From a virus, in the IMG/VR virus record IMGVR_UViG_3300025093_000077, positions 1-30,827 of that record: 30,827 bases of DNA. One strand, written 5' to 3'. Position numbers and translations under genes: made by a program. Below the pieces are notes generated by a model, which made no database searches, had not been told where the DNA came from, and was given only the letters and a program-made list of their open reading frames with translations. Each line of letters begins with the position of its first letter. Positions within the stretch are counted from its first letter, which is position 1. Of the stretch, positions 522 through 30,199 are shown piece after piece.

Positions 522-888
522 TATGGAAGGAAAATTTCAAACACAGATACCAAACTTACCTATTTTAGGAAATAATAGGTATGAAAATATTTTCAAGTTG
601 TATGTAAATGAAAACGATCAATTTTTTTACAACTTAAAATCATCAGTGACATTTCCTAATGATATAGATGAAGAGTTTATAGGTTTTTTTAATTTAGATA
701 CTAATGCACCTTGGACTACAATAAGTTATGGTATATACGGCACTATTTTTCTATGGTGGATGATCACTGAGTTAAATAACATCACTAACCCTATAGATAT
801 TCCCAAACCGGGTACTATTATAAAATATATTAAACCTGAATATGTAAAGCAAATTGTAGGTCAAATTAATAATCAATCTAATGGCTAG
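514..888 (+). CDS. Baseplate wedge protein, gp53-like
   Basis: A 124-residue protein with the pattern expected of T4 gp53-type wedge proteins: FFYNLKSSVTFP near residue 37, then W67-TTISYGIYGT, LWWMITELN near residue 80, and N-x-I-x-NP before a short basic C-terminal helix. Gp53 joins wedges into the hexagonal baseplate in T4, and the same role is inferred. Two ATGs are possible (514 and 523). The first overlaps the upstream gene by 8 nt and neither has a clear Shine-Dalgarno. The gene overlaps the following hub-like gene by 8 nt, so translation of the three is probably coupled. Confidence 0.6.
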   Translation: MINMEGKFQTQIPNLPILGNNRYENIFKLYVNENDQFFYNLKSSVTFPNDIDEEFIGFFNLDTNAPWTTISYGIYGTIFLWWMITELNNITNPIDIPKPGTIIKYIKPEYVKQIVGQINNQSNG

Positions 889-2521
889 TTTTAAGTATAC
901 ACCCCAACAAATTGATCCTATAATTAGTAGTTCTTTAAATGAACTATCTAATAATTTTAGGATTGACGATGTTGACTATAAGTACTACGTTTACCTAGTA
1001 AACGGTAATGGGAAGTATATGGGATTAACTACCGATGCAATTGAATTATTAAACATAAAGGATAACCTTTTGGATGTTGCAGCATCCGGTAGTTGTGTAA
1101 TAAGAAATGATAACGACGTTATAGAAAGAAGTAACTTAAACATACAAGTAGATCAAACTGATAACTATTTTGCAAGACAACCTAAAGGTAAATCCGATAC
1201 ATATATAGATGAATTCTTCTTTAGAAACGATTGTAGAGATTTTTTATATGTTTATATAGAACCTGAGCTTCAAGATATTTTTAACAACGAAGACATAGAT
1301 ACATTAAAACCTAACTCTACTTTATTTTATGTTTTTTCAATCATTAATAATAAAGATATTAGCACCGGTGGTGAAAAATTTAAAGAACTTGAACTAATTG
1401 ATGCTGATTTAGAAATTCTTAGAGAGAAAAATTTAGGTTTCAGTACATCATACTTAGTAAAAAATGAAGCAGAAGATCTTACTCATAAAGATGATACCGA
1501 ACGTGGGTTATTTACGGGAGAAGTAATAAAGAATTTAATTATTACAGGGTTAGATGCTGGTGGTGCATTAGAAAAAACTGAACAAAACGGTTCTGTTATA
1601 AATGACTCTTTATTTGATTTAGGAACATCTACTTTATTTTATTCTTCACCTGCTGATTATAATGTATTAGATGATATAACTTATGTAGATGGAAGACATA
1701 CTTCATCAGCTTACCCCCACGATCCTTGCATTTTAAGAAAAGATAGATATAATCATCAGTATACATATATTAGTTATAAAGACTATTTTAAAAATGCTAT
1801 CTTTCAAACCGAAGATGGTTTAGCTTCCGGTGGTTTTGCTCACATAGAAACCATTTATGTTGGTGAAGATGCTGACACTCAAGTTAACAATAGAAAAAGA
1901 AGAACCCCATACGTACCTTACAATAACGTTACTATAGGAGATTTTTCTATGGTTAACGATTACAATTTTAGTAATATGTCTGGTTTAGATACACAATCAG
2001 AATTAATTACAACTGCAGTTCACTCTTATCAAACTAACGATAAACAATTTCAAATAGATTTAACTAACAACAACGTTACTAGATCGATGAATGATTATTA
2101 TGACTTTTTTGTTAGAGGTGAAAAAGAAAAACCATTATTTGTAGGAGAAAATTTAAATACAAATACTTTTTTGAATCAGTTAAGAAAAAATAACATTAAC
2201 ATAAAAAATGATTTTTCTATAAATGATAAAGAACCCGATCAAAGATTAGGTTTAGGAAGAAATAGTTTTCTTAAAAATGCAATCTTTTTGAATAATGCTT
2301 TATCATTAGAACTTAAGGGACTTACTTTTAGGTCGTCGGGTAAGTTTTTTAGTTTTGAGCGTAAAGCAGGTGTGTATGATAGTAAGTATGATGATAAAGT
2401 TTTCGGTACTTATTTTATTGTTGAAGTAGAACATACATTTAAGAAAAATAATTACACTAATAGTCTTATAGGTGTTAAGACTTATTTGTTTGAAAATCCA
2501 GACATTACAGAAGTGGTATGA
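881..2521 (+). CDS. Putative baseplate hub protein
   Basis: A 546-residue protein. The C-terminal part (about residues 508-535) reads GTYFIVEVEHTF, then YTNSLIGVKTYLF. This is the 'V-x-H-x-F...Y-x-N...V+xY' ending seen in tail hub proteins of the gp27/gpD type, where it closes the last beta domain. Position directly after the gp53-like gene supports a hub or tube-baseplate role. It is longer than T4 gp27 (391 residues), so extra domains are present in the middle. The next gene starts inside its stop codon (ATGA at 2518). The exact T4 equivalent is uncertain. Confidence 0.5.
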   Translation: MASFKYTPQQIDPIISSSLNELSNNFRIDDVDYKYYVYLVNGNGKYMGLTTDAIELLNIKDNLLDVAASGSCVIRNDNDVIERSNLNIQVDQTDNYFARQPKGKSDTYIDEFFFRNDCRDFLYVYIEPELQDIFNNEDIDTLKPNSTLFYVFSIINNKDISTGGEKFKELELIDADLEILREKNLGFSTSYLVKNEAEDLTHKDDTERGLFTGEVIKNLIITGLDAGGALEKTEQNGSVINDSLFDLGTSTLFYSSPADYNVLDDITYVDGRHTSSAYPHDPCILRKDRYNHQYTYISYKDYFKNAIFQTEDGLASGGFAHIETIYVGEDADTQVNNRKRRTPYVPYNNVTIGDFSMVNDYNFSNMSGLDTQSELITTAVHSYQTNDKQFQIDLTNNNVTRSMNDYYDFFVRGEKEKPLFVGENLNTNTFLNQLRKNNINIKNDFSINDKEPDQRLGLGRNSFLKNAIFLNNALSLELKGLTFRSSGKFFSFERKAGVYDSKYDDKVFGTYFIVEVEHTFKKNNYTNSLIGVKTYLFENPDITEVV

Positions 2522-4162: not shown

Positions 4163-4666
4163 ATGAGTGATATGTGTGATGTATACGAAACAAATACAAA
4201 TTGGGTTTATGCTGATAAACAAGTATTGACTGTTAAGTTTAAGAAGACGCATGATGATGCAAAACTACCTGCAGTTAACAATGAAGAATGTATGACTGGT
4301 GATTCTGGTTATGATTTGTTTGCTGTAGAAGATACAACTATTCCTGCTCGTGGTAGTGCAGTAGTGTGCGTTGGTCTTACTCTTGCTGATATTACACCTG
4401 GTTATTGGTTTCGAATTGAACCTCGTTCAGGTCTAGGGTTCAAGCATAGTCTACAACCTCATCTAGGTGTTATTGATAATCAATATAGAGGAGATCTTGG
4501 CGTTAAGTTGTATAACTTTTCTGATACAGATGCAGTAATTGAAAAAGGTAAAGGTTGTGCTCAGCTAGTTGTTTACAAACTACGTCAACCTATTATTCAA
4601 TGGGCTGATGAAGTGTCTGATACTAACAGAGGAGCTGATGGATTTGGCTCGTCTGATAGTAAATAA
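4163..4666 (+). CDS. dut: dUTPase (deoxyuridine 5'-triphosphate nucleotidohydrolase)
   Basis: A 167-residue trimeric-type dUTPase that hydrolyses dUTP to dUMP and pyrophosphate. This keeps uracil out of phage DNA and supplies dUMP for dTMP synthesis. All five family motifs are visible: I GDSGYDLFA (46-54), II EPRSGLGF (86-93), III GVIDNQYRG (102-110) with the catalytic Asp, IV KGKGCAQLVVYKL (128-140) and V RGADGFGSS (156-164). The N-terminal 22 residues are an extension before the usual first strand, but the promoter exactly 6 nt before this ATG supports the start. The clamp loader gene begins 4 nt after its stop, so the two are probably cotranscribed. Confidence 0.95.
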   Translation: MSDMCDVYETNTNWVYADKQVLTVKFKKTHDDAKLPAVNNEECMTGDSGYDLFAVEDTTIPARGSAVVCVGLTLADITPGYWFRIEPRSGLGFKHSLQPHLGVIDNQYRGDLGVKLYNFSDTDAVIEKGKGCAQLVVYKLRQPIIQWADEVSDTNRGADGFGSSDSK

Positions 4667-4670
4667 CTAT

Positions 4671-5603
4671 ATGTTCGATAGCCTTTTTGTTGAAAAGTAT
4701 AGACCTCAAACACTCGATGATATTATCTTAACTGATGATAATTATCGAGTGTTTAATCAATTTAAAGAAAAGGAAGAGATTCCTAATCTTTTATTTGCTG
4801 GTCCTCCTGGTATCGGTAAAACTTCTTTAGCTAAAATTATAGTAAAAGATCTTATTAAGTGTGATTATATTTACATTAACGCTTCTGATGAAAACGATAT
4901 TGAATCAATTCGCAAAAAAGCTATTACATATGCAAAGCAAAGACCATCTAAAGGAAAAATAAATGTTATTATTCTAGATGAGTGTGATGGTTTAATGCAA
5001 GAGTCTCAAAAAGCTCTTCGTAACGCTATCGAAGAATATAGTAGAACTACTAGATGGATTCTTACATGTAATTATATTCATAAAATTATACCTGCATTGC
5101 AGAGTAGATGTCAAAACTTTGATTTAACTCCTCCTATCTTAGAAGTTGTAAAAAGATGTAGTTCTATTTTAAATTATGAAAAAATTACCCTTACTGAAGA
5201 AAACAGGGATTACTTCATTAAGTTGATTAAAAAGGATTACCCTGATATTAGAAAATGTGTTAACAACATACAAAAGTATACAGTCAATGGAAGACTCGTT
5301 ATTGATAAGGAGGAAACAGACCAGGTGTTTGTTGACGACTTGTATGATAGAATTGAATCTGGCGTTTCTGAAAACATTAGACAATTTCTTACAGATAATG
5401 ATGAAAAGTTTAACGGTGAGTATCACTCTCTTCTTAAGCTTCTTTTTAATTACACGCACGAAAAAGACCTTCCGGAAAAATTCAAAAGAGAACTATTGAT
5501 TACAATATCTAACTATCTCTATCAAAACACTCATGTATTGGATAAAGAAATTAACGCATTCTGTTGCTGTCTTGAGTTAGTAAAACTATTTGAAAAGCGA
5601 TAG
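4671..5603 (+). CDS. Clamp loader small subunit, T4 gp44-like (paralogue 1)
   Basis: A 310-residue AAA+ ATPase of the RFC-small/T4 gp44 type, which opens and loads the sliding clamp for the phage polymerase. Visible features are EKYRP (8-12), Walker A GPPGIGKT (44-51), Walker B with DECD (103-106), sensor-1 TCNY (132-135) and the arginine-finger SRC (145-147), followed by YPDIRKCVNNIQKY, equivalent to the FPDFRKTI region of gp44. The frame extends upstream to 4569 inside dUTPase, but homology starts at MFDSLFVEKYRP, matching the start of the downstream paralogue. It lies 4 nt after dUTPase. No gp62-like partner or clamp is in the window. Confidence 0.92.
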   Translation: MFDSLFVEKYRPQTLDDIILTDDNYRVFNQFKEKEEIPNLLFAGPPGIGKTSLAKIIVKDLIKCDYIYINASDENDIESIRKKAITYAKQRPSKGKINVIILDECDGLMQESQKALRNAIEEYSRTTRWILTCNYIHKIIPALQSRCQNFDLTPPILEVVKRCSSILNYEKITLTEENRDYFIKLIKKDYPDIRKCVNNIQKYTVNGRLVIDKEETDQVFVDDLYDRIESGVSENIRQFLTDNDEKFNGEYHSLLKLLFNYTHEKDLPEKFKRELLITISNYLYQNTHVLDKEINAFCCCLELVKLFEKR

Positions 5604-5623
5604 ATAGTTCATATCATAGTGAT
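5590..5623 (+). promoter_or_regulatory. Sigma70-like leaderless promoter of second clamp loader gene
   Basis: TTGAAA at 5590-5595 lies inside the end of the first clamp loader gene. Then come 16 nt, TATCAT at 5612-5617, 6 nt and the ATG at 5624. This gives the second paralogue its own transcription start. Confidence 0.7.
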
Positions 5624-6538
5624 ATGTTCGATAATTTATTAGTAGAAAAATATCGCCCGAAACGTATTATAGACTTTTGTCTTAAATCAGGAAACCCTCT
5701 TGAAGAACTAATTAATAAGTCTGCTGGTACAGGTAGTATACCTAACGTGTTATTAGTAGGTAGCCCGGGGATTGGTAAGACTACTCTTGCAAAGATTTTT
5801 GTAAATGAGCTCATGGATTGTGATCATTTATATATCAATGCATCAGATGAAAATGGTATTGATACAATTAGAAGTAAAGTTACAAACTATGCTAAAACTA
5901 AGAGTTTATTTCCAATTAAGGTAATTATTCTTGATGAGTGTGACGGATTAACGCAAGATGGTCAAAGAGCATTGCGTAATGTAATGGAAGAGTATAGTGC
6001 TATTACTCGATTTATTCTTACTGCTAATTATAAACATCGAATCATTCCAGCATTACAGAGCAGGTGCCAAGTATTTAACATAACTCATGATGTAGAGGAT
6101 GTAACCAGGCGCATGGCTCATATATTGAATGAGGAGGGTATCGTATGTAGTGAAGAGAGCTTGAAACAAATTGTTAGGGATAACTTTCCAGATCTTCGAA
6201 AGACCATCAATACGATTCAAAAGCTTACAAATGATGGAAAGGTTGAAATTGATGATAGTTCTAACGTATCCAAACTTGTTGCTGATTTGTATAAACTTAT
6301 CGAACACGGGCATGTTCTTAAGTGCAGAAAGCTTGCGATAAAGAATGAGTATGTGTTTAATAATGATTACCCTGTTTTGATTAAAGATATGTTTAACTAT
6401 ATTGATAATCTAGATATCGACGATGAAAAGAAAAAGTCGCAACTTACAACGTGTCACGACTTTATCTATAAATCAAGCTTTGTAATGGATCAAGAAATCA
6501 ATGCGTATTCTTGTTTTATTACTTTAAGTAAATGCTAG
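5624..6538 (+). CDS. Clamp loader small subunit, T4 gp44-like (paralogue 2)
   Basis: A 304-residue AAA+ protein closely related to the preceding gene: MFDNLLVEKYRP start, Walker A GSPGIGKT (46-53), DECD (104-107), sensor-1 TANY (133-136), SRC (146-148) and NFPDLRKTINTIQ, very like gp44 NFPDFRKTI. All ATPase residues are intact in both copies, so neither is an obvious inactive partner. T4 makes its loader from four gp44 and one gp62, so two gp44-like genes suggest a heteromeric loader or specialised subunits (inference). It has its own leaderless promoter. The 3' end overlaps the minus-strand gene by 20 nt. Confidence 0.92.
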   Translation: MFDNLLVEKYRPKRIIDFCLKSGNPLEELINKSAGTGSIPNVLLVGSPGIGKTTLAKIFVNELMDCDHLYINASDENGIDTIRSKVTNYAKTKSLFPIKVIILDECDGLTQDGQRALRNVMEEYSAITRFILTANYKHRIIPALQSRCQVFNITHDVEDVTRRMAHILNEEGIVCSEESLKQIVRDNFPDLRKTINTIQKLTNDGKVEIDDSSNVSKLVADLYKLIEHGHVLKCRKLAIKNEYVFNNDYPVLIKDMFNYIDNLDIDDEKKKSQLTTCHDFIYKSSFVMDQEINAYSCFITLSKC

Positions 6539-7148
6539 TGTCAGGTACGTTACCTCCTCCGATTGCTTGAGCATCAAATGTAGGTGCACCAAATTGATCA
6601 GTTTTTACATTAGTGTTATGTAATTCTTTAGCATCACCCATCTTTGGTTTCTTTTCAGCATCAGGTAAGTACCCTGCATCAACCTGCGATACAAGAGGAT
6701 TTTGTCCAATGTAATCTACATCAAACTCTAAAGTATCTGGATTGATTTCTGTCTTGTTAGGACGTACCATACTATCTGGTACTGGCATTCTGTTAGGGTA
6801 TACATCTACTGGTGTAAATATATCATCTGGAAATTGATAAAACCCGTCGTATCTACCAGGAGCTGTTTCTTGAGATACAGTTACTGCAAATTCACCGCTA
6901 GAGTTATCAGTATTTCCAGGTTGTTTCGAAGGGTATTTGTTCTCGATGCCTGATACTCTTAAGTTAAGATCACTTGCAATTAAGTCATCTAACTTAGCTT
7001 TGTATTCAGGACTCATCTTTTTATATCCTTCGCTAGATTTATAGTCATCTCTAACCTTTACTAGGTCACCAGTCAAGAAACCACCTCTAGTATATCTTGA
7101 AACGTAGGACTCATAGATCTTATTAAATTTTAGGTTATTTTTGTCCAC
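6519..7148 (-). CDS. Unknown protein, probably virion-associated
   Basis: A 209-residue protein with a GTG start. I do not recognise it. The N-terminal 70 residues are charged and helical (FNKIYESYVSRYTRGGFLTG, then YKSSEGYKKMSPEYKAKLDD). The rest is rich in Pro, Asp, Asn and Gly with little predicted secondary structure, and ends in a Gly-rich tail. No membrane segment or signal peptide. A late-type TAAATA box lies 5 nt before the GTG, which supports that start and places the gene with late, mostly structural, genes. It is convergent with the clamp loader gene and divergent from the gp25-like gene. Confidence 0.7.
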   Translation of the reverse strand: MDKNNLKFNKIYESYVSRYTRGGFLTGDLVKVRDDYKSSEGYKKMSPEYKAKLDDLIASDLNLRVSGIENKYPSKQPGNTDNSSGEFAVTVSQETAPGRYDGFYQFPDDIFTPVDVYPNRMPVPDSMVRPNKTEINPDTLEFDVDYIGQNPLVSQVDAGYLPDAEKKPKMGDAKELHNTNVKTDQFGAPTFDAQAIGGGNVPDTSIYLK

Positions 7149-7691: not shown

Positions 7692-9521
7692 ATGGCAGCT
7701 AAATCAGATTTTAATTTACAGACAGATGGTTATGTAGCATTTGATGCTATTAGTCTAAAAGACTTGATCATCGAAAGAATGAATGAACAACAGATCTTTA
7801 CAGATCAAAACTACGAAGGTAGTAATTTATCTGCTTTAATCGATGTCATTGCTTATTCCTATCACGTCTTAATTTATTATCTTAACAAAAACTCATCAGA
7901 GAGTAGTTTTACTCAAGCTGAAATTTACGAAAACATAAATCAAATTGTTAAGAGTATAGATTATAATCCATCAGGCCCACAAACTTCTAACTTATCTTTC
8001 GAAGCAGTTGCTACTGCAATGTTAGAGCAAAATTTATATACTATACCAAGATACAGTTATTTTTCATTTAATGGTACATCTTTTAGTTTTACCGATGATG
8101 TTTCATTTCAAAAAAATACATCTAATGCTGAAGTATTAACAGCTCTTCAAAATAACACTCTATTATATAATGGACAATTTGTAGAGTTTCCGGTGTTTCA
8201 AGCATTAGGAGAGGAATTTGAAGTTGCAACATTAGCAGCTACCAATACAGATACAAATTTTTATATAGATAATAATAATATTCACGTATATGTAAAAGAA
8301 CCTAAAAGAGACGCTAAATGGGAAAAATGGACAAGAACAACTTCATTGTACTTAGAAAATGGTTCTGCTAAAAAATATAGTGTAAGGTTTAATCAAACTG
8401 AGCAATATGAAATAAAATTTGGCAATAACGTAACTGGTAAAAAATTAGTACAAGGAAGTCAAATAGCAATTTATTATTTGAAGTCTGATGCAACTTTAGG
8501 TCAAGTAAGCAAAAACACATTAGACAATCAGGCATTGTACTTTTTCAACACTACGCAGTTTAATAGAATATTAGCTGATACAACGCCACGAGGTTCTAAC
8601 ATTATTACACCTACTGAATCGTCTAACATTAGATTTTCAAATGAAAATTCATCTACTAATTTCAAATTAAAAGAAAGTGTAGAAGAGATAAAACAAAACG
8701 CTCCTAAGCTTTTTAACTCTCAATATAGATTAGTTACTACTGGTGATTATCAAAATTATGTTCAAAAGAATTTTGGTAGTTGGGTGAGATCAGTAAGTGT
8801 TGTAAACAATTTTGATTACTTAAATCAGTATCAAAATTATTTCTTTGATATAGGGTTAGATAGACCTAATGAAGATTCGAGGGTTTTATTTAACCAAGTT
8901 AATTTTGCTGATTCTTGCGACTTTAACAATGTTTATATTTTTGCAGTACCAAATAAAAATGTAGAAACTAGTTTAGATATAAGAACTAATTATTTGTCTG
9001 TAGCTCAGAAAAATGCAATTACTATTTTATTAAACGACGTTAAAAGTGCAACAACTGAATTGATAGTAAACGATCCTGTTTATATGGAAATTAATTTAGG
9101 GGCATCTAATCTTAAAGAAGATGTTATCTTTCCTGAAGAAGCTGGTGATAACAGTTACCTTTATATAGAAATGGATAGAAATTCTAGAAGGGATTTAGAA
9201 ACTGTTAAAAATGAAGTAGCTTCAATTTTTAAAACTTACTTTAATGTTAATAATTTAAAATTAGGACAAATTATTAGCGTTAAAGATTTGTCTCAACAAA
9301 TTTTAAACTTAGATGGGGTAAATAATTTTACAACAAGAAGGAATTTTAAAGATAAAGTTATTATAGAAAACGAACTTGAATTAGCAATTTATAACCCAGT
9401 TTACGCAACACAAGATTATAATTTTACTCAACAAGATATTAATTTACAGTTTTTTCAATTCCCTTATTTTAGAAATCTTTCTAATATATCAGACAGAATT
9501 GAAGTTGTAAGACAAGGATAA
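7692..9521 (+). CDS. Baseplate wedge protein, gp6-like
   Basis: A 609-residue protein beginning with the gp6/gpJ-type N-terminal region: FDAISLKDLIIERMNE, then YEGSNLSALIDVIAYSYHVL and LNKNSSESSFTQAEIYENI, where the 'T-A-x-x-x-x-N' part is usual. Two copies of this protein hold each wedge together and connect neighbouring wedges. The middle carries REVT-like beta segments and a late strand-rich domain (residues 430-590) with EMDRNSRRDLETVKNEV. Length is close to T4 gp6 (660). It lies directly downstream of the gp25-like gene and 1 nt before the next. Confidence 0.85.
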   Translation: MAAKSDFNLQTDGYVAFDAISLKDLIIERMNEQQIFTDQNYEGSNLSALIDVIAYSYHVLIYYLNKNSSESSFTQAEIYENINQIVKSIDYNPSGPQTSNLSFEAVATAMLEQNLYTIPRYSYFSFNGTSFSFTDDVSFQKNTSNAEVLTALQNNTLLYNGQFVEFPVFQALGEEFEVATLAATNTDTNFYIDNNNIHVYVKEPKRDAKWEKWTRTTSLYLENGSAKKYSVRFNQTEQYEIKFGNNVTGKKLVQGSQIAIYYLKSDATLGQVSKNTLDNQALYFFNTTQFNRILADTTPRGSNIITPTESSNIRFSNENSSTNFKLKESVEEIKQNAPKLFNSQYRLVTTGDYQNYVQKNFGSWVRSVSVVNNFDYLNQYQNYFFDIGLDRPNEDSRVLFNQVNFADSCDFNNVYIFAVPNKNVETSLDIRTNYLSVAQKNAITILLNDVKSATTELIVNDPVYMEINLGASNLKEDVIFPEEAGDNSYLYIEMDRNSRRDLETVKNEVASIFKTYFNVNNLKLGQIISVKDLSQQILNLDGVNNFTTRRNFKDKVIIENELELAIYNPVYATQDYNFTQQDINLQFFQFPYFRNLSNISDRIEVVRQG

Positions 9522-9522
9522 A

Positions 9523-11814
9523 ATGACGGTATTAGATACAGGGTATTGGAAATTCGATGTCTTTAATGTTTATGATGATACGTCTTTATCATCATACGCA
9601 TTAGAACAAACCCCTTTAAAGTTTATTCCTACTACTTTAAAAGGTCAAGATTATAGCAATCAAAATATTATTTGGGATTTTGGTGATGAATCCCCAAATG
9701 TTAGTTCTTTATCAGCTACCCATTCTTATTTTTACCCAGGTGAGTATAGAGTGACCATGACAGTAATGTTATCTGATGGTAACACTCAACTTGATTCATT
9801 TTTTCGTACAGTTAAAATATTCGATTTTGTACCTAATACATTTGCATTTAAAACTTTATCATCAAGCGATGTTTTAAATTTATCAGCAGGAATATTTTCT
9901 GATAAACTTACATTAGAACGATTTAATAGTCTTCAATCATTCAGCACCACACCTTACACTTTCTTTTTAAATTGTAGTGGAAGTGATAGTTTATATTATG
10001 ATAAAACGAAATTAAGTGTTGAACCTTATGCATTTTTATTACCAACACATAGGTTTGTAAAAAGAGAAGAATTAGGAGTAGTATATAGTGACACTGTTAT
10101 TAATAAATTAGATACTACTTCTACTAATCTTTATGGTAAGTTAGATAAAACTAGTTTAGTTGTTCCTGCTTCTTCTACAGACGTAAATGCATTTTTTGTA
10201 GGTACAAGCGGGTATGGTGAATTTTATTTTGTAGATGATTTTGTAAGAACTAACCCTTATTATATTTTAGCTACTTTAGATACTTCTAAATTTCCTGATA
10301 ATTACACAAAGTATTATCAATTACCTTTATCTGATTTGCCTATTAAAAATACATCTACTACTTACTATACTATTAGCAGTAATGTATTCAAACATGCTGA
10401 TTATTTTTCTATAACAAGTAATGGTTTAGACGGGGAAGGATTTTATTTAGATACGTTTGATATAGGTAAATCAAAATTTTATAATCAAGTAATAAGTTTT
10501 GTTGCTAAACTTAAAACTAATAGTCTTTATAATTGTAAAAATCAATTTAATAAATTGAATCCAGGTGTAGTAGATTTTGCTACTAATGCAGTAAAAATTT
10601 ATTTAGTGGATTCTATTACAGGTAAAAATCTTGGTGATATTTTACCTTACACCACATTTGACACTTCCACCTTTAAAGATTATTCATACGGTTGGGTTAA
10701 AGGTAATATAATTATACCAGAAGATAATAATCTAGATACTAATTTTACTTCTAACAATTTCTTATCAGTTAGATTAAGCGCTACTTCATTAATTCAAGAT
10801 AATGAAGGCGGTACTTACTTTGTATCAGGTAGTAGTTCTGATTTTAATCTTTACCCTTCTACTGGTATTAATAGAGTAGCTAAGATTAACGAAAATTTTG
10901 ATATGTCAGGTTATATGAAGAGCACAGCTTTACAGCCCTCAATATATAATAAACCAGTCATATTTGATACGTTTTTTAGTACTATTTTTGGTAATATTAG
11001 TTCTGGTGTAGATGCTATAGGTAAACGCATTTATGAGAAAACAGCTAATTTTGTAAGTAACAATGTTAATATAGATACTTGTAATATTGATTCATTAATT
11101 AGTTACGCTGATGAATATAATATAGATTTAGAACAATTCGCTTCTACCGATTTATTAATAAATTACCCCGCTGAAATTTCTAGATTAGTTAATTTATTTT
11201 CTATTAAAAAATCATTATTATTTGGTAAAAGAAACCAATCTAATTTTAATTTTATTAATAATTATTCTAACAATCTTATTGGTTCACTAGATGAAAGTAT
11301 AGGTTACGTTGAAGATAATAAAAAATATGGATATAATAAAGGCGAAAAATTAGATATATTATCTTATGTAATTAACAAGAGTGAAAATTATATAGTTGCT
11401 GAAGAGTTATATTCTTCAAACTATTCATTGTTAAGAGTAAATTTACTAAGTTCAATTGTATCTGCAGATATATACCCATTAAGTTCGTTTTCTAAAAACT
11501 GGGGCTGGGGGTTAGTTTTACCTGATGATTTTTATACTGATTCTTTATCAACATATAAACTATCATCATATTATAATTTTTATAATTATTACCCTACCGT
11601 CGACGGTACTTATAATAACAACATAATAAATTGGGAAGATACGTACAATACCACCGTTAATATTCCTTTCGATAGTCTATCTTCCACTTACTTGCCTTCT
11701 TACTTATCTAGTTATAATAACACACCATTAGTTGAATGGGATACAGAAGATGGTATTATTGAACAAAATCTTGCTTATCAATTAAGTTTAGGTTCTGAAA
11801 TCTTGTCTTCTTAA
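9523..11814 (+). CDS. PKD-domain tail/baseplate protein
   Basis: A 763-residue protein. Residues about 35-95 form a PKD domain: IIWDFGDESP (49-58), then THSYFYPGEYRVTMTV (66-81). PKD domains are Ig-like beta modules that mediate protein or glycan contacts. The remaining 660 residues are rich in Ser, Tyr, Asn and Leu and show no motif I know. Place in the operon, straight after gp6, matches that of gp7 or another peripheral wedge protein in T4-like phages. It is probably a peripheral baseplate or tail-decorating protein. A weak AAGGA lies upstream of the ATG, which starts 1 nt after the gp6-like stop. Confidence 0.7.
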   Translation: MTVLDTGYWKFDVFNVYDDTSLSSYALEQTPLKFIPTTLKGQDYSNQNIIWDFGDESPNVSSLSATHSYFYPGEYRVTMTVMLSDGNTQLDSFFRTVKIFDFVPNTFAFKTLSSSDVLNLSAGIFSDKLTLERFNSLQSFSTTPYTFFLNCSGSDSLYYDKTKLSVEPYAFLLPTHRFVKREELGVVYSDTVINKLDTTSTNLYGKLDKTSLVVPASSTDVNAFFVGTSGYGEFYFVDDFVRTNPYYILATLDTSKFPDNYTKYYQLPLSDLPIKNTSTTYYTISSNVFKHADYFSITSNGLDGEGFYLDTFDIGKSKFYNQVISFVAKLKTNSLYNCKNQFNKLNPGVVDFATNAVKIYLVDSITGKNLGDILPYTTFDTSTFKDYSYGWVKGNIIIPEDNNLDTNFTSNNFLSVRLSATSLIQDNEGGTYFVSGSSSDFNLYPSTGINRVAKINENFDMSGYMKSTALQPSIYNKPVIFDTFFSTIFGNISSGVDAIGKRIYEKTANFVSNNVNIDTCNIDSLISYADEYNIDLEQFASTDLLINYPAEISRLVNLFSIKKSLLFGKRNQSNFNFINNYSNNLIGSLDESIGYVEDNKKYGYNKGEKLDILSYVINKSENYIVAEELYSSNYSLLRVNLLSSIVSADIYPLSSFSKNWGWGLVLPDDFYTDSLSTYKLSSYYNFYNYYPTVDGTYNNNIINWEDTYNTTVNIPFDSLSSTYLPSYLSSYNNTPLVEWDTEDGIIEQNLAYQLSLGSEILSS

Positions 11815-14960: not shown

Positions 14961-17084
14961 ATGGCAACAATATTACCAGCAAATACAAAAACAAATAATA
15001 TATTTGTAGACAGTTTTTACAATATATATAACGATATTGTAGTATCTGCTGAATTTTCCTTGTTCGGGACCCCTAGTTCTGGAGGTGAAGGTTTTTGTGT
15101 TTACTTTGTAAATGCTGATGCATCTAATATTGGTAATGTAGGTAGCCCTGGTCAAGGGTTAGGTTATTCTAAATCGGCTAGTGTAGTAGAATTTAATGGT
15201 ACTGACATATTTGAAGGCGTCAATGGAGCTCTTCTAGGTGTTGGTTTTGATGCAGCTGGAGGTTTTAGTTTACCAATGGGAGGACCTACCGGTACAGTAA
15301 GTCATCCTAATGCAATTACTTTAAGAGATGGAGCTGATAGTTATGATTACATTTCATCTTCATTACCATTGAGCACATATGGTATTAATTTATATGAACA
15401 GTATGGGTTAGTACCTGGTGCCACACCTACAAGGTCTACTACTTACACTCAAGGTATTAATACAACACCAACAGCTACAAGAACTAATACCCAAACTAAT
15501 ACTAGAACAGTTTCACAAACAAGAACAAATACCTTTACTCAAACCAACACCATTACTCAATCAACTACCGTAACTAATGGCTTTTCTCCTACACCTACTA
15601 AAACAAGAACAAATACACCAACAATAACAAATTCTAGAACTCATACCCCAACTAGAACACCTACTCAAACGGGGTTATATCCTATTAAAAAAGCTTTTAA
15701 AGTAAGACTTACAAATTACGGAAGAAAAGTAATAGTTTATTTACGAAAAGATAATAATTCTAATTTTGTAAAAGTTTTTGAACAAGACAATTTAAGTTTA
15801 AATTTACCTTATAACGGTAGAGTTAAAGTTGGTATTTCATATTCTACAGGTACTCAATTATCTAATTTATATCTTTATAATATTAGTGTGAATGGTACAG
15901 GATATGAAAATGTAAACACACCTACCCCTACTGCTACTAGAAACGTAACTCATACGTCTACACAAACTAGAACGTCTTCTAGTACCCCAACCCAAACCCC
16001 TACTAATCAAGCGTCAGTTACACCCACTTTAACAAATACATATACCCAAACTAGCTCTTATACCCAGACCCCGACACAGACAAGAACTAGAACACAAACC
16101 CCAACACAGACCAGAACACCAACTCAAACACACACTCAATCACCTACTGAAACACCCTGGACTACACGTACTCCTACACCTACACAAACTCAGACATCTA
16201 CACAGACAAGAACAAATACCAGAACACAAACTCCTACTAGAACTAAAACCAACACACGAACAAGATCACAGACACCTACTACAACAAACGCACCTTATAT
16301 AGTAGCTGATGAGACATCTTATAAATTTGTATTTGAAAGTGATTGGTTACAAGCAGATAGTGCGCAAGCTGCAGTTAATGTTTTAATTAATAATGCAAGA
16401 CAAGGATTTAACTCTAATAGAACACCTGACAATGTAATTAATGTTAATGATGAAGGCGTGGCTCTTAATTTTAAAAGCGGTAATTTTAGATCATTTTTCT
16501 TTAATGGAACTGCTGAAACAGCTCAATCAGGATTTGAAGACCCTAATGGTGAATCAGGTTGGTCGCCTATAAGATTTGCGGAAAGTAAAAGCGAAGTAAC
16601 ACCTAACATACCGTCATCATTGCTAGGTGGGGTTAAATCTGATGTATATAATGCTTTAAAAATATTAATGCAAACAGGTAACACCTTAGATACCACTTTA
16701 GTTAATATAGATAAAAAAGATAATACCGAACCTACTCCATTTAATATATGGAAAACTACAGATTTATCAGATGACTATAAAGCAGTTACTAAAAATTATA
16801 ACATTCATGAAGCTATATATGCTAATAATTTTAGAAATAATGCTAAAATTTTATACAATATAGATTACGCTGCTCAAGCCGATATTGAACCTAATGAATT
16901 TTTTAATACACCCGATTCATTTAGACTTGTACCTAACGTAAGGTATTTAAATGTAACTGTTAATGAAATAAATGTCACTTTTAGCTATTGTACTGAATTG
17001 ATTAGTTACTATCCTACTGATTTACAAACAAGTTACTGGGGTGCAAGATTAACATTATTCACCACCGCTACTACAACAACATGA
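14961..17084 (+). CDS. Tail adhesin with lectin-like N terminus and Thr/Pro/Gln/Arg repeats
   Basis: A 707-residue protein with at least five parts. Residues 15-145 look like an L-type lectin/concanavalin fold: GGEGFCVYFVNAD (41-53), SPGQGLGYS (62-70), GALLGVGFDAAGGFSLP (89-105). Residues about 153-237 are a low-complexity linker of alternating Thr with Pro, Gln, Arg and Asn. Residues 238-317 are a second beta domain resembling the last strands of a lectin domain. Residues 318-445 are a second, longer Thr linker. The C-terminal 260 residues are a globular domain of unknown type. A lectin fold split by a repeat linker would be unusual. It probably binds host surface glycan. It shares a 52-bp identical segment with the next gene. 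Confidence 0.75.
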   Translation: MATILPANTKTNNIFVDSFYNIYNDIVVSAEFSLFGTPSSGGEGFCVYFVNADASNIGNVGSPGQGLGYSKSASVVEFNGTDIFEGVNGALLGVGFDAAGGFSLPMGGPTGTVSHPNAITLRDGADSYDYISSSLPLSTYGINLYEQYGLVPGATPTRSTTYTQGINTTPTATRTNTQTNTRTVSQTRTNTFTQTNTITQSTTVTNGFSPTPTKTRTNTPTITNSRTHTPTRTPTQTGLYPIKKAFKVRLTNYGRKVIVYLRKDNNSNFVKVFEQDNLSLNLPYNGRVKVGISYSTGTQLSNLYLYNISVNGTGYENVNTPTPTATRNVTHTSTQTRTSSSTPTQTPTNQASVTPTLTNTYTQTSSYTQTPTQTRTRTQTPTQTRTPTQTHTQSPTETPWTTRTPTPTQTQTSTQTRTNTRTQTPTRTKTNTRTRSQTPTTTNAPYIVADETSYKFVFESDWLQADSAQAAVNVLINNARQGFNSNRTPDNVINVNDEGVALNFKSGNFRSFFFNGTAETAQSGFEDPNGESGWSPIRFAESKSEVTPNIPSSLLGGVKSDVYNALKILMQTGNTLDTTLVNIDKKDNTEPTPFNIWKTTDLSDDYKAVTKNYNIHEAIYANNFRNNAKILYNIDYAAQADIEPNEFFNTPDSFRLVPNVRYLNVTVNEINVTFSYCTELISYYPTDLQTSYWGARLTLFTTATTTT
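15430..15673 (+). repeat. Degenerate Thr-rich coding repeat (linker 1)
   Basis: Tandem degenerate units of about 6 nt (ACN plus CAA, CCN or AGA) encode alternating Thr with Pro, Gln, Arg and Asn. This is a flexible or extended linker inside the adhesin, not an intergenic repeat. Confidence 0.85.
15915..16293 (+). repeat. Degenerate Thr-rich coding repeat (linker 2)
   Basis: Same unit type as linker 1, about 125 codons, with recurring TPTQT and TRTQT words. Its end holds the first copy of a 52-bp exact direct repeat. Confidence 0.85.
16230..16281 (+). repeat. 52-bp exact direct repeat, copy 1
   Basis: Identical base for base with 17924-17975. Encodes the same Thr/Arg/Lys-rich run in the same frame (TRTKTNTRTRSQTPT). 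The match stops abruptly on both sides. Confidence 0.95.
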
Positions 17085-19489
17085 GTACTATTTATATAAC
17101 AGGAACAGATACGTCAGTATTAAGTGCTGCTGTAGCATCTGGATACTACTTTTTAAACCCAGTTGATAATTCATCTAACTATTACTCTTTAACAGCTAAC
17201 GGGAGTGAATTACAAAAAGGTTTAGCTTACTCTCAATATCTTACTGGTAGTACTTTTGATATGGATGAGTTGGTTTATAAGCGTATTACTACTTATAATC
17301 AATCAAGTTCTGCTGTTAGTATAGATAGATATTATAGTGAGTTTAATTCTATTTCATTTAACTTATCTGGTATAGATGATAGTGATAATGCAATAGTGAA
17401 AATATTATTCGATCCTAAGGATGGGTCACAGTTAGTTGTAGATAGTTTTAACAATGCATTAACATATGATGGAGAGTATGTGTATAAATCTGCGTCAGGT
17501 GTTAATACTGATAACCCTAAGTATAATATTTTTACTCATAAGTATAATTTATCTATTGATGATCAATTTTCTAAAACGTTCTATCCTTCGTTCTCTGCTT
17601 ATAGATTAGATGGACTGGTAGATATATATGATATTGATTTATCTATAGCTAGAGATAGTATCTATAATGCATCTGATGATATAAAGTTATTAGATACTAC
17701 TATTTTACCTTTAAGTGCTAATGACCCGTTAATTAAAGTAGAGTTACAAAACCCTGATAGTGTAGATAATTGGGTTTTAAGAAGGAGTGTTACACCAACA
17801 CCTACAAGAACCTTAACACCTACCCCTACAAGAAATGCTACCCCTACAAGGTCCCGTACTCCTACCCAAACTAAAACACCTACAAGAACTTCTACTATAA
17901 CTAGAACAAGATCTCAAACCCCTACTCCTACTAGAACTAAAACCAACACACGAACAAGATCACAGACACCTACTAGATTTGCTACACCAACTCAAACGAG
18001 AACAAGAACAAAAACAGATTATAGAAAGACAGTAATACCTTTAACCCCTCCGCCTTCTAAATCTAAAGTTATTCTTCCTCCTTGTGTAAATAGAAAGTAT
18101 AGAGTTACTTTTTCAGGTGAAGCTGATATGGTAGACATTAAAACTGTTACACTTGGTGTACAATATAAATTTAGAAATATTACAAGATTCTTTTTAGATA
18201 CTTCTAATTTACCTCCAACAACTTATGGTAATAACTTAACTTTTGATGTTGTTGTACCTAGTAGTGTTTCTCAATCGATGTTATCTCCTTTTGTTAGATT
18301 TACTGAAGAAGACCCACAAATTACTTTTCATTCAATAGAATTAATTGACCCTTGCCCGGTTAATGTTCCAGATCCTAGAATACCTGAGCCTTGCCCTGAG
18401 GGTGAAACTTTAATAGATGGTAAATGTCAAAAAGTTTGCCCGGACGGACAATTAATGGATGAAAATGGAAATTGTTACATTTGTGGTAACCCAGAATGCC
18501 CTGATTGTTCTGACGATTGTGGAAAAAATTGTGAACAACCTTTTATTGAAGATGCTAATGGTAATTGTATTTGCCCTCCAGGTACTACTTTAGTTAATGG
18601 ATCGTGTCAATTATTGTGCCCTCCAGGAACCACTTATAATGCTGATACCGGTTTATGTGAAGAGCCTGTATGCGAAGAAGGATATATTAAGAACGAAGCA
18701 GGTGAATGTGAAAAGATAATTACTCAACAAGATTACACTCATTGGTTTAGTTTTGGTACTACATTTATTAGAGGGAGAGGAACGTGTCCTGTTGACCCTA
18801 ATGATGCTGCAGCATTAAAAGATAACTATGTAGTAGTAAACGGTCAACAATTTGCAGCTGTTGCAGCTGATTTTTGTCAAGCTACCGTTAATGTAAGTTA
18901 TCAAGTAATTAAAACACAATTATCTCAGTCTGAAGTAGAGAGTAATTATATAAATGATAAAACGACTGGTGCTCCTATTCCGTTTTGCCCCACTGGTCCT
19001 CAATCCGGTATAAGTGAATTAGCTAATGGACAAGTATCTGGAATATACTATAATCAAGATATATGGGATCAAGAAACAAATATTATACACAACCCTACAT
19101 TACCTGTTCCTAAAAATGGTCATAACATATACGTAAACATTACTGATGATAGAGATACAGTTAACAACTTTAATTACTTCGTTTGGTTTAAAGTTAGAAT
19201 TTCTTATGGATGTGAAGAACCATACCTTACTGAATGGCAAGCATTAGGTAACAATAATTGTAATAAATTAAAAGAAGTATTATTTTGTAAATCTTTAGAA
19301 GCTGACAATCCAGAAGCATTTGCAAATGATAGAATATGTCAAGATTTAGTAGAGTATGATGAAATGAAATTTGACCACATACCTAATTGCCCCTTATGTA
19401 GAGATGAATACAATTTAGTAAGACCTCTAGAAGATTTAAGTACAATTTTTGAAAAACCGTTCGCATATATTATAACAAGAGTAAGTTAA
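17081..19489 (+). CDS. Tail adhesin/fibre protein with Thr-rich linker and Cys-rich modules
   Basis: An 802-residue protein starting in the stop codon of the previous adhesin (ATGA), so the two are translationally coupled and probably form one fibre complex. Residues 1-235 are strand-rich. Residues 236-316 are a Thr/Pro/Arg linker like those of the previous gene. A beta domain follows (CVNRKYRVTFSGEADMVDI). Residues about 425-545 hold some 17 Cys in short modules of the type C-P-x-G-x(5-9)-G-x-C. The C-terminal 250 residues are globular with a CPLC motif near residue 770. No signal peptide. It is likely a receptor-binding or fibre-tip protein. The Cys modules recall EGF-like or TIL-like repeats but do not match a family I can name. 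Confidence 0.7.
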   Translation: MSTIYITGTDTSVLSAAVASGYYFLNPVDNSSNYYSLTANGSELQKGLAYSQYLTGSTFDMDELVYKRITTYNQSSSAVSIDRYYSEFNSISFNLSGIDDSDNAIVKILFDPKDGSQLVVDSFNNALTYDGEYVYKSASGVNTDNPKYNIFTHKYNLSIDDQFSKTFYPSFSAYRLDGLVDIYDIDLSIARDSIYNASDDIKLLDTTILPLSANDPLIKVELQNPDSVDNWVLRRSVTPTPTRTLTPTPTRNATPTRSRTPTQTKTPTRTSTITRTRSQTPTPTRTKTNTRTRSQTPTRFATPTQTRTRTKTDYRKTVIPLTPPPSKSKVILPPCVNRKYRVTFSGEADMVDIKTVTLGVQYKFRNITRFFLDTSNLPPTTYGNNLTFDVVVPSSVSQSMLSPFVRFTEEDPQITFHSIELIDPCPVNVPDPRIPEPCPEGETLIDGKCQKVCPDGQLMDENGNCYICGNPECPDCSDDCGKNCEQPFIEDANGNCICPPGTTLVNGSCQLLCPPGTTYNADTGLCEEPVCEEGYIKNEAGECEKIITQQDYTHWFSFGTTFIRGRGTCPVDPNDAAALKDNYVVVNGQQFAAVAADFCQATVNVSYQVIKTQLSQSEVESNYINDKTTGAPIPFCPTGPQSGISELANGQVSGIYYNQDIWDQETNIIHNPTLPVPKNGHNIYVNITDDRDTVNNFNYFVWFKVRISYGCEEPYLTEWQALGNNNCNKLKEVLFCKSLEADNPEAFANDRICQDLVEYDEMKFDHIPNCPLCRDEYNLVRPLEDLSTIFEKPFAYIITRVS
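17788..18030 (+). repeat. Degenerate Thr-rich coding repeat (linker 3)
   Basis: About 80 codons alternating Thr with Pro, Arg, Gln and Lys, in the second adhesin. Contains the second copy of the 52-bp repeat. Confidence 0.85.
17924..17975 (+). repeat. 52-bp exact direct repeat, copy 2
   Basis: Identical with 16230-16281, at a distance of 1694 bp. The surrounding linker sequence is similar in type but not identical. Confidence 0.95.
18350..18715 (+). other. Cys-rich module region inside the second adhesin
   Basis: The coding sequence here gives repeated CPEG, CPDG, CPPG motifs each followed 8-12 residues later by a Gly-rich turn and another Cys, with a dense central knot (CGNPECPDCSDDCGKNC). 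It could be disulfide-linked or metal-binding. Confidence 0.8.
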
Positions 19490-20611: not shown

Positions 20612-21395
20612 ATTTTTATTTGCAACTGTAGCTGTTGGAGAAAAATATAATAAAAGATTATTAGACACTCTTTTTTTATTTGATAAGTTAGGTTATAATA
20701 AAGACGACAAGTTAATTATTTTTACAGATCGTCCAGAATTATATGATAATGATTTGAATATAACAACTGATATTATTCATTACAACGAATCAGATAAATT
20801 TCAATTCATTGACCATACTAATTTTAGAGACAATACAATGATAAAATTGTATTACATTGCTAAGGTTTATTTTGAAAACAAAGATCATAATGTCATTACC
20901 TGGTACGATGCTGATGCATTTCCAATTATACCTAGAAGTGAGGTTATAAATGAAAAGTTTGAACCCGGTTTTTATTTTAGAGATTGTCATTTGTTTGACT
21001 CTTTAGATAGTGTTAATCCTTCATTAAAAGAAAGATATGATAGATATAAAAATATTGCACAAGATGATCCTATAGCTTTATGTGAAGGTAAATATGCAGC
21101 TCCTGTTGAAACTATCTTAACAATTGTAGATAATTTTAATCAAAATACTAAAAGGGTCTTTAAAATTACTGCATGGTATTATCTTAATTACAATTTACAC
21201 AATTATCTCAACGATTGTTATTCTGAATCTGCTGAGTTGAGTTATGTAATAGGTAAGAGTTTTGGTACTTGTAATCCTATTGGAAGATCTCTTTGCACTG
21301 ATAATCATATTATGCCAGATGATTCAATAGATCGAGATAGAGAAAAATTATTGAACAACGATTTCATAAGGGAGTACTTTACTTCTAATAATTAA
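20604..21395 (+). CDS. Glycosyltransferase, GT-A type
   Basis: A 263-residue protein with features of a nucleotide-sugar-dependent GT-A enzyme: N-terminal FLFATVAVGEKYNKRLLDT, KLIIFTDRPELY (36-47) and a metal-binding DxD in TWYDADAFPI (DAD at 102-104). GT6-like and related phage or LPS glycosyltransferases start the same way. The acceptor is unknown; a modified DNA base, a virion protein or host surface glycan are all possible. Its 3' end overlaps the convergent carbamoyltransferase gene by 48 nt, which suggests but does not prove a shared modification pathway. No signal peptide or membrane segment. Confidence 0.65.
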   Translation: MNRFLFATVAVGEKYNKRLLDTLFLFDKLGYNKDDKLIIFTDRPELYDNDLNITTDIIHYNESDKFQFIDHTNFRDNTMIKLYYIAKVYFENKDHNVITWYDADAFPIIPRSEVINEKFEPGFYFRDCHLFDSLDSVNPSLKERYDRYKNIAQDDPIALCEGKYAAPVETILTIVDNFNQNTKRVFKITAWYYLNYNLHNYLNDCYSESAELSYVIGKSFGTCNPIGRSLCTDNHIMPDDSIDRDREKLLNNDFIREYFTSNN

Positions 21396-23069
21396 ACCAT
21401 TCATTGCTTCCTTATCGTATATTTCAAATGCATCTTTGTAAGTGTTTAAGATAGGTTTTCCTGCAACATTAAATGATGTGTTAAGTAATACTGGAATATT
21501 ACCTTGAGTTTCTAATTCAGATAACAAATCATACATTAACTTATTTTGTTCTTCAGTTACAGTTTGAATTCTAGCAGTGCCATCAGCATGAGTAATACTA
21601 GCCAACTCTGTCTTAAATTCTTCCTTTACTGTAGCTGCAAAGTTCATATGTCTACTCTCTCCTTCCCAGTTAAAATATTTTGATACATCTTGCAGTCTAA
21701 CTATTGGAGCAAATGGTCTAAAAAACTCTCTATGCTTGACTTTGTTATTAAGAATATCTTTCATACCTTCTTTAGGCGAACATATAATTGATCTATTACC
21801 TAAAGCTCTAGGACCGTGTTCAGCTTTACCTTGCACAACTCCGTAAATAAAATTTTCTTTACATATATTTTTAACTACTTCATTTATGTTAAATCTTTGA
21901 ACGTTTCTTCCTATAAGATAAGAATGAATACTATCTTCATCATATATTTCTTCCCCAGCATAAGTCATGTCTATAGGAAATTGAGGTCTAATATGATCGA
22001 GTACTAAACCTGTAGCTAATCCGCAATCAGATGAATTAGGAGCAACAAACATTTCTTTACCAAACGACTTAACATAATCTCTTACTCTAGTGTTATATAA
22101 TATATTCATAGCACACCCTCCAGTAATGCATACGTTAGTTTTATATTTGTCTAAGTAAGGTTTTATTTCATTAAAGTGAAGCTCTTCAAACACATATTGA
22201 CTTGTTGCAATTAAGTTTTTAGCATCGTCTCCTTTTATTCTCTTTGTTCTATCTGGTAAAAATTTACCCACATGATGAAATTCTAATCCTATTTCTTTAC
22301 CTAACTCTTTTACAAAATCGTCTCTATTACTCTCAACCGGAGCCCATCCTTCTCTATTCCATTTGTTGTAATATCTTCTAATAGGTTCTACCCATTCATT
22401 TATAACTTTACCATATGAACAGTAACCCATTAACTTTCCTGAATATGTTAAACAAGCTTCACCGTAGTCTTGAATGAAACTAATATCATCAATAAAGTAC
22501 CCTAGATAAAAATAAGGATTGCCATAATCATTAAATGAAAAATGAATAGTTTCTATCTGCTCACTTTTTTGTTTCTTTTTATTAAAATGATAGCCAATGT
22601 TCCAACCATCATCTCCTCCTCCATCAAATGAAAATACTAATGCTTCTGTAAATGGGCTTTGATAGAAAGTACCTGAAGCGTGAGCTTTATGATGATAAGC
22701 AGCCCATCCGTTACCACTAGACAATCCAGTATCGCATGATACTTCTAACTCTTCTCCTTGTTGATTTAATCTTGTTTGATTATGTTCAATCAAATCAGTA
22801 TTAAAGTGCACCCCAACTTGTCTGTTTTCAAAATCAGAATTAATACATCTAATTAAATCTATTTTATCGATACCGTATTTGTATTTTAAATGATGTTTAA
22901 CCATTTCGGTCATCATCATTGGGTCAAATCTTAAGTTAAATGTACACCATGAGAGATTTTTATGATTGAATAATCTTTCCATTTCAATCACAATAAACTC
23001 CCCTTTATTCCATACAGCAATTGCTGAATTATGACCTCCATTTATACCTACAATTACCTTATCGTGCAC
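21348..23069 (-). CDS. Carbamoyltransferase, NodU/CmcH/TobZ family
   Basis: A 573-residue protein, normal length for the family, which transfers the carbamoyl group of carbamoyl phosphate via an adenylate to a hydroxyl. Visible features are the ASKHA-type start (VIVGINGGHNSAIAVW), the metal-binding HHKAHA (126-131), the FSFDGGGDDGW segment, CITGGCAMN (314-322), and the C-terminal YrdC-like hallmark GPRALGNRSI (419-428) with VKHREFFRPFAP. Starts with GTG; a near-match late box (TAAGTA) lies 5 nt upstream. Members act on Nod factors and antibiotics, and phage members are reported to carbamoylate 5-hydroxymethylcytosine in DNA. No hydroxymethylase is in this window, so the substrate stays open. 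Confidence 0.92.
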   Translation of the reverse strand: MHDKVIVGINGGHNSAIAVWNKGEFIVIEMERLFNHKNLSWCTFNLRFDPMMMTEMVKHHLKYKYGIDKIDLIRCINSDFENRQVGVHFNTDLIEHNQTRLNQQGEELEVSCDTGLSSGNGWAAYHHKAHASGTFYQSPFTEALVFSFDGGGDDGWNIGYHFNKKKQKSEQIETIHFSFNDYGNPYFYLGYFIDDISFIQDYGEACLTYSGKLMGYCSYGKVINEWVEPIRRYYNKWNREGWAPVESNRDDFVKELGKEIGLEFHHVGKFLPDRTKRIKGDDAKNLIATSQYVFEELHFNEIKPYLDKYKTNVCITGGCAMNILYNTRVRDYVKSFGKEMFVAPNSSDCGLATGLVLDHIRPQFPIDMTYAGEEIYDEDSIHSYLIGRNVQRFNINEVVKNICKENFIYGVVQGKAEHGPRALGNRSIICSPKEGMKDILNNKVKHREFFRPFAPIVRLQDVSKYFNWEGESRHMNFAATVKEEFKTELASITHADGTARIQTVTEEQNKLMYDLLSELETQGNIPVLLNTSFNVAGKPILNTYKDAFEIYDKEAMNGLIIRSKVLPYEIVVQ

Positions 23070-26180: not shown

Positions 26181-26214
26181 TTGATAAAGTACGGAGTGTC
26201 CCTATAATATTTGT
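26181..26214 (+). promoter_or_regulatory. Strong sigma70-like leaderless promoter
   Basis: TTGATA at 26181-26186, 16 nt, consensus TATAAT at 26203-26208, then 6 nt (ATTTGT) and the ATG at 26215. The best promoter in the window. Confidence 0.85.
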
Positions 26215-29677: not shown

Positions 29678-30199
29678 ATGGCAAAGATAGAATATGAACC
29701 GGACTTAAAGAGAGGTTTCCTTTTCGTTTGCACCGGTAATGTGTTCAGGAGCAAAACAGCTGCAGCGCTGGCAGTAAACAAAGGTTTATTAGCTGCTTCA
29801 GCTGGATTTGAACCTAAAAGGCTACATGATGAACATAAAGACTTGAGTTATTTTAATCATGGCAATAATAATGATATTGTTATGGATAAAGAAGCTTATG
29901 AGTTTTGTATGAGTAGAAGAGTTAAAGACTGGGAGATAGAACCTGGTCAGCAAGAACTTACTCCCGAACTTATGGAAGAAAGTCAGATTGTTGTTTGTAT
30001 GAATTACAGAGAGCATTACCCTATGATGGAAAAGTTTAAGATTAAACATTGCTTTGAAGCTCATAATGTAATGTATTGGGATGTTCCTGATATCTTCAAA
30101 GAAGAAGGATGGAAAGGGTGGGATGATAATCTTGATTTTGGCAATAAGAAAGATATCATTTTAATGATTAAAGATAGAATTGATTCACTTAAAAGTTAA
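29678..30199 (+). CDS. Low-molecular-weight protein tyrosine phosphatase-like protein
   Basis: A 173-residue protein. The P-loop FVCTGNVFRS (16-25) is the C-x5-R-S signature of the LMW-PTP/arsenate-reductase fold (C18, R24, S25) and lies near the N terminus as it should. The late WDVPDIF (134-140) provides the Asp needed as general acid. A middle segment (KRLHDEHKDLSYFNHGNNND) is longer than in typical members. Targets could be host tyrosine-phosphorylated proteins or a nucleotide or sugar phosphate; nothing in the neighbourhood decides. It has its own -10 box 6 nt before the ATG. Confidence 0.82.
   Translation: MAKIEYEPDLKRGFLFVCTGNVFRSKTAAALAVNKGLLAASAGFEPKRLHDEHKDLSYFNHGNNNDIVMDKEAYEFCMSRRVKDWEIEPGQQELTPELMEESQIVVCMNYREHYPMMEKFKIKHCFEAHNVMYWDVPDIFKEEGWKGWDDNLDFGNKKDIILMIKDRIDSLKS

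Follow-up and report, generated by a model that had tools for sequence, protein, structure and literature searches.

Two diverged gp44-type clamp-loader ATPases encoded in tandem in one clade of uncultured phages, one of them with an altered clamp-facing loop

Clamp loaders are a textbook example of a machine that evolves from identical to specialised subunits. What should be made, then, of a phage that encodes two diverged clamp-loader ATPases side by side: are they parts of one loader, two loaders, or a loader and something else? We addressed this question with the virus record IMGVR_UViG_3300025093_000077, which is covered in full by the 30.8-kb stretch of DNA that we analysed (hereafter the window) and which is probably a fragment of a larger genome. 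The two genes, gp44-A and gp44-B (A and B for short), and their immediate neighbours are as follows.

4163-4666, plus strand: dUTPase gene (PHROG 135), which lies upstream and serves as a marker of the ancestral gp44 locus
4671-5603, plus strand: gp44-A, 310 aa, ATG start; predicted AAA+ clamp-loader ATPase subunit without the clamp-gripping hydrophobic residue
5604-5623, plus strand: spacer of 20 bp between A and B
5624-6538, plus strand: gp44-B, 304 aa; predicted AAA+ clamp-loader ATPase subunit in which the hydrophobic clamp loop is kept
6519-7148, minus strand: conserved gene without a Pfam match, the downstream neighbour of the gp44 locus

Both open reading frames are intact and both proteins match PHROG 168, 'clamp loader of DNA polymerase' (E 1.2e-67 over residues 3-303 of A; E 9.2e-73 over residues 3-301 of B), with Pfam AAA and Gp44_lid above cutoff in each. 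This bears out the first-pass annotation of the window, which had described two complete gp44-like genes in tandem. The two proteins are 46% identical over 307 columns (BLASTP). The orthologues of A in G002, G005, G006, G017 and G018 are 90-98% identical, and those of B are 85-92% identical (67-68% in L008/L009). Purifying selection is strong on both genes, with dN/dS of 0.02-0.08 for A, which is under the stronger constraint, and of 0.07-0.14 for B. The low identity between the paralogues, the intact reading frames and dN/dS values well below 1 rule out a recent duplication or a pseudogene. An assembly artefact is likewise ruled out, since contigs from several metagenomes contain the pair and its divergence is too large for a mis-join.

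The residues that bind and hydrolyse ATP, or that act in trans on the neighbouring subunit, can be located in both proteins.

4800-4823, plus strand: Walker A of A, GPPGIGKT (residues 44-51)
4977-4988, plus strand: Walker B of A, DECD (residues 103-106)
5103-5111, plus strand: SRC arginine finger of A (residues 145-147)
5759-5782, plus strand: Walker A of B, GSPGIGKT (residues 46-53)
5933-5944, plus strand: Walker B of B, DECD (residues 104-107)
6059-6067, plus strand: SRC arginine finger of B (residues 146-148)

Sensor 1 is CN/AN in A and B, and the features that define a gp44 (Walker A, DExD, sensor 1 Asn, sensor 2 Arg, SRC, trans Arg122 and Gln118) are found in both. The equivalents of T4 K56, D107, E108, D110, Q118, trans R122, N139, the R151 finger and PDxR are invariant in 5 A and 10 B sequences, such that the conservation of Walker A, DECD, sensor 1 and SRC pointed out at first pass for the two copies extends across their orthologues. 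A pairwise alignment to T4, used as a control, also gives intact catalytic and coupling residues in A and B. The AF2 models of the two proteins (pLDDT 89.1 for A and 88.7 for B) have an RFC-like three-domain fold with a collar; the best PDB matches of the A model in Foldseek are RFC small subunits, with T4 gp44 (8uh7) at E 1.1e-17, and the B model also matches RFC small subunits and T4 gp44. Judged by these residues and folds, both paralogues look active.

The loop that faces the sliding clamp is a different matter.

4938-4964, plus strand: clamp-facing loop of A, QRPSKGKIN (residues 90-98); residue 93 (4947-4949), in the column of T4 Phe97, is Ser
5897-5920, plus strand: clamp-facing loop of B, TKSLFPIK (residues 92-99); residue 95, in the column of T4 Phe97, is Leu

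We took as reference the 149 columns that are conserved in class among 67 single-copy gp44s. At these columns A has nine radical changes, present in all complete orthologues, and B has two; such paralogue-specific conserved differences are what a hetero-ATPase loader would be expected to show. Four of the nine columns changed in A are in the clamp-facing loop (T4 94, 96, 97 and 102) and three are in the collar, and none corresponds to a catalytic or ATP-site residue. The loop includes just six conserved columns, which gives a hypergeometric p of 9e-5 for the four changes, an optimistic value given that this region was picked after Phe97 stood out. The Phe97 column itself is F, L, I, V or Y in 86/86 single-copy rows, hydrophobic in 7/7 references and L in 10/10 rows of B, and it is S or K in 5/5 rows of A; in pairwise alignment to T4, too, the residue is S/K in A and L/F in B. 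Phe97 of the T4 protein is a key contact to the clamp, where Cys, Val, Ile, Leu and Tyr are tolerated without large loss of fitness, and it lies outside the set of the most mutation-sensitive residues (PMC8121543). By these alignments, B is a full member of the T4-type gp44 family and A is a homologue with an altered clamp loop. The pattern suggests that A may have lost the patch that grips the clamp and that the two versions could be specialised parts of one loader.

How widespread is the arrangement? The tandem is present in six contigs of one phage clade: it is complete in the window, L002, L005 and L006, and L003 and L004 contain the 3' end of A upstream of B. All contigs of the close clade that extend far enough upstream of B to show A do have it. 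In L008, B is present and there is no A in the 1.6 kb visible upstream, and B might act alone in that lineage. The two genes persist as separate units when other genes are interposed, as in L002, where a GIY-YIG-like ORF (1223-1963; identified by eye, without NCBIfam match) stands between A and B, and in L006, where they are separated by ~1.9 kb with three ORFs (8111-9975), two of them with starts like those of signal peptides. The junction of A and B thus resembles a hot spot for insertions. No second gp44 copy was found at 97 other related phage loci. In 50 records with other relatives of gp44, some of them contigs of 96-199 kb, there is one gp44 per virus record, the exception being one bacterial MAG with two further weak matches. 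A search of 50,697 public phage records with B (E up to 1e-15) gave 2,376 matching places in 2,375 records, and thus at most one record has two copies at this threshold. The pair is confined to one clade of uncultured phages, and nearly all other phages have one gp44. A third unrelated complete loader elsewhere, which the first-pass annotation had named as a finding that would count against its reading, was not encountered: neither the window nor the 69-kb relative G006 yielded a third gp44 or a third loader ATPase.

The genomic context gives information on the history of the pair. A single gp44 is found within 300 bp downstream of the dUTPase gene in 54 of the 85 testable relatives, and a minus-strand homologue of the gene at 6519-7148 follows the single gp44 in 50 relatives, in many of them with gp25- and gp6-like genes after it. 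Since the tandem is bordered by the same two genes, it sits exactly at the ancestral gp44 locus. In the phylogenetic trees, B is joined first by L008/L009 and next by the single-copy L098 (99/98 support). A is on a long stem (0.71-0.78 changes per site), after which it is strictly conserved, and its placement in the best trees differs from that of B's sister. A clean sister relation of A and B was not recovered, although the AU test does not reject a clade of both: forcing A, B and L008/L009 into a single clade lowers the likelihood by 18.2 log units (AU p 0.0975), and with L098 added to that clade the AU p is 0.31. The gap of 1 kb that precedes gp44 in L098 contains another ORF and no remnant of A. 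On the evidence of the trees, the A/B split is old. The locus thus combines an old split with paralogue-specific changes, unlike the very recent duplication with no conserved differences that the first-pass annotation had considered damaging to its proposal.

These trees bear on the origin of A and not on its function, and in-place duplication and capture from a related phage are not distinguishable by them. There is a substantial chance, though we would not bet on it, that A came horizontally into the gp44 locus from another phage of this large group. This would explain why the best trees keep A away from B while B joins L098 with high support, and why the constrained clade is costly in likelihood. 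However, the constraint is not rejected in either form, A is a long branch, and the tandem occupies precisely the conserved dUTPase-gp44 position. A horizontal origin is compatible with any of the functional roles that we consider for A.

The T4 loader combines gp44 with gp62, and the first-pass annotation had recommended a search for the latter. There is no gp62 in the 30.8-kb window. The search in the relatives was fruitful: G006 combines a single gp62 (PHROG 225, phrog_225) with both A and B, and G017 and G018 each combine a single gp62 with A. These findings rule out that gp62 was lost and replaced by the second gp44. The intact gp62 has 133 aa and lies ~30 kb from gp44; the gp62-bearing contigs of the lineage that show no gp44 end before this distance, and are for this reason uninformative on gp44. 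In G017 (L039:12103-13535), the neighbours of gp62 are a DUF366 gene (E 2.2e-19) and a 136-aa ORF that resembles, by eye, a GroES-type co-chaperonin and has no Pfam match. Upstream of gp62 in G017 (L039, 4632-11585) and in L088/L086 there are consecutive ORFs that resemble by eye glycosyltransferases and sugar-metabolism genes, and this run is conserved across the clade, with variation. As for the clamp, several rounds of HMM searches and a scan of the collection revealed no gp45 in the clade contigs examined. One gp45 each is present in relatives such as the single-copy G041 (198.8 kb), which also has one gp44 and one gp62, with the three genes dispersed; synteny with G041 (L207) suggests that the gp45 of the clade may lie just beyond the left end of contig G031. 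With no gp45 among the contigs examined, a second clamp or a compensating clamp surface is conceivable.

Separate expression of the two genes had been proposed at first pass, in the form of a leaderless promoter for B. We found a sigma-70-like site with a 10/12 match (TTGAAA-16-TATCAT) at 5590-5617, but such sites number 16 against 17.2 expected in shuffled sequences. The count of TATAAT-N4-9-ATG in the window (13, against 9.8 expected) is also at chance level, and the region before B lacks conservation in contigs in which other genes separate it from A. Given these counts and this lack of conservation, we consider the promoter unsupported. Several genes of the window (at 26203, 27194 and 29666) have a TATAAT 6 nt before the ATG, a leaderless-like arrangement.

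How could the two proteins work? We think it probable, if only just, that gp62, A and B make one T4-type loader in which A and B are non-equivalent ATPase subunits. Of the two options raised by the first-pass annotation, a hetero-oligomer or two loaders used at different times or with different clamps, we favour the former because the differences between A and B are in the clamp-gripping loop and the collar and not in catalysis; nothing shows separate times or clamps. The pentamer would include one gp62 clasp and four AAA+ subunits drawn from both A and B. B would plug its hydrophobic loop into the sliding clamp, and A, with a full ATP site and finger and a hydrophilic loop, would drive and couple the ATP spiral without gripping the clamp. 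We infer that A and B assemble together at fixed positions. In the T4 loader, all five subunits contact the open clamp: those at positions A, C and E insert into pockets of individual clamp protomers, and those at B, D and A' into the crevices from one protomer to the next, even though the subunits B to E are identical proteins (PMC3331839). By analogy, gp44-A could occupy positions B and D (inter-subunit crevices) and gp44-B positions C and E (canonical pockets). This placement is the weakest step of the scheme, and we regard it as doubtful; in its favour, it would require a P-loop and a finger of each paralogue, and each has both. Their retention in both would argue against confinement of either protein to position E, which needs no hydrolysis, or to position B, which needs no finger, and an alternating order gp62-A-B-A-B would need exactly the residues that are kept. 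Speculatively, gp44-B would plug the clamp pockets and gp44-A would provide pure ATPase spacers at the crevices, in which case subunit identity, beyond the gp62 clasp, would set the register. Equally tentatively, such a loader might be an intermediate between that of T4 (one ATPase) and RFC (four small subunits) that arose independently in phages.

The main competitor of a mixed pentamer is a pair of homotetrameric loaders, A4:gp62 and B4:gp62, dedicated to different times or DNA structures, or with one of them acting as an unloader. A homotetramer would need all cis and trans ATPase residues in one protein, and each paralogue has them; in addition, the genes inserted between A and B in L002 and L006 are consistent with a system where strict co-expression is not needed. 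We nevertheless find it unlikely: a pure A loader, without the hydrophobic residue that contacts the clamp, should hold the clamp poorly, one gp62 was detected per record, and there is no promoter evidence for separate timing. The missing contact could also mean that A no longer loads clamps and became a specialised AAA+ factor, e.g., one that unloads clamps, has a regulatory role or acts against the host. The long stem and the changes in clamp-loop and collar columns, which are found in A only, would suit this, yet A keeps all the gp44 ATPase, sensor, trans Arg and lid signatures, remains beside B at the ancestral locus and has the predicted fold of a loader small subunit, which makes such a conversion rather improbable. 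Finally, both genes look active, as would a redundant duplicate kept for dosage without functional split, but this is hard to reconcile with 46% identity, with paralogue-specific changes that are conserved and cluster in the clamp loop, and with the slow evolution of A after its stem, and we give it very little credence.

A loader made of gp62, A and B would resemble known systems to different degrees. It shares with T4 gp44/gp62 (PHROG 168 and PHROG 225) the gp44 family with its Gp44_lid and ATPase residues and, in the relatives, gp62. It differs from T4, where one gp44 fills all four ATPase positions, in having two diverged versions, one without the Phe97-type contact, and in that gp44 and gp62, adjacent in T4, are ~30 kb apart. 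The single-copy relatives (e.g., G041) have the same locus, with dUTPase, gp44, the minus-strand gene, gp25 and gp6, and the nearest have ~40-53% identity to A and B, but they encode one gp44 per virus record. The first-pass comparison with the diversification of eukaryotic RFC is apt in part. RFC1-5 are position-specialised homologous ATPase subunits of one pentamer (PMC3331839), a co-assembly that we propose for A and B; here there are two types of small subunits instead of four, and no catalytically dead RFC5-like subunit is evident. The nearest precedent is the euryarchaeal RFC (RFCL + RFCS1 + RFCS2, e.g., in Methanosarcina), which has two diverged small-subunit paralogues, with RFCS2 on a long branch (PMC2880001). 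However, RFCS2 lost one RFCS-RFCS binding site (PMC2880001), whereas A and B both keep the cis and trans ATPase residues, the changes in A affect the clamp loop and the collar, and the system is phage-encoded with a gp62-type clasp.

In the limited collection of literature that we searched, we came across no phage loader with two paralogous ATPases. Marine metagenomes are reported to encode divergent subunits of clamp loaders, of which some are viral and others are paralogues within bacteria (PMC12153180); the A+B arrangement is not described in the sections on which we draw. In T4, identical ATPase subunits must bind two kinds of clamp site, and the setting of the register has been raised as a problem from which eukaryotic loaders, with their distinct subunits, are spared (PMC3331839). 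A phage clade with two gp44s, one of them apparently without the clamp plug, would be a natural experiment on this question: close single-copy relatives allow comparison, and the proteins are small enough for a purified system.

Other genes in these contigs deserve mention. In L008, a gene for a prepilin-like protein (597-1559, minus strand; TIGR02532, with a weak match to Verru_Chthon cassette D) adjoins gp44-B, and a second ORF similar to it is found at the contig end; the prepilin-like gene hints at a host of the Verrucomicrobia/Planctomycetes type. The window encodes a carbamoyltransferase (21351-23069, minus strand; Carbam_trans_N and _C) beside a 263-aa glycosyltransferase-like ORF, possibly genes for sugar or nucleotide modification. 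Two large putative structural proteins with long Thr/Pro-rich repeats of the type TPTRTPTQTPT are encoded at 14961-19489. The ORF at 29678-30199 (plus strand), without NCBIfam or Pfam match, has a start (LFVCTGNVFRSKTAAALA) similar to that of low-molecular-weight tyrosine phosphatases.
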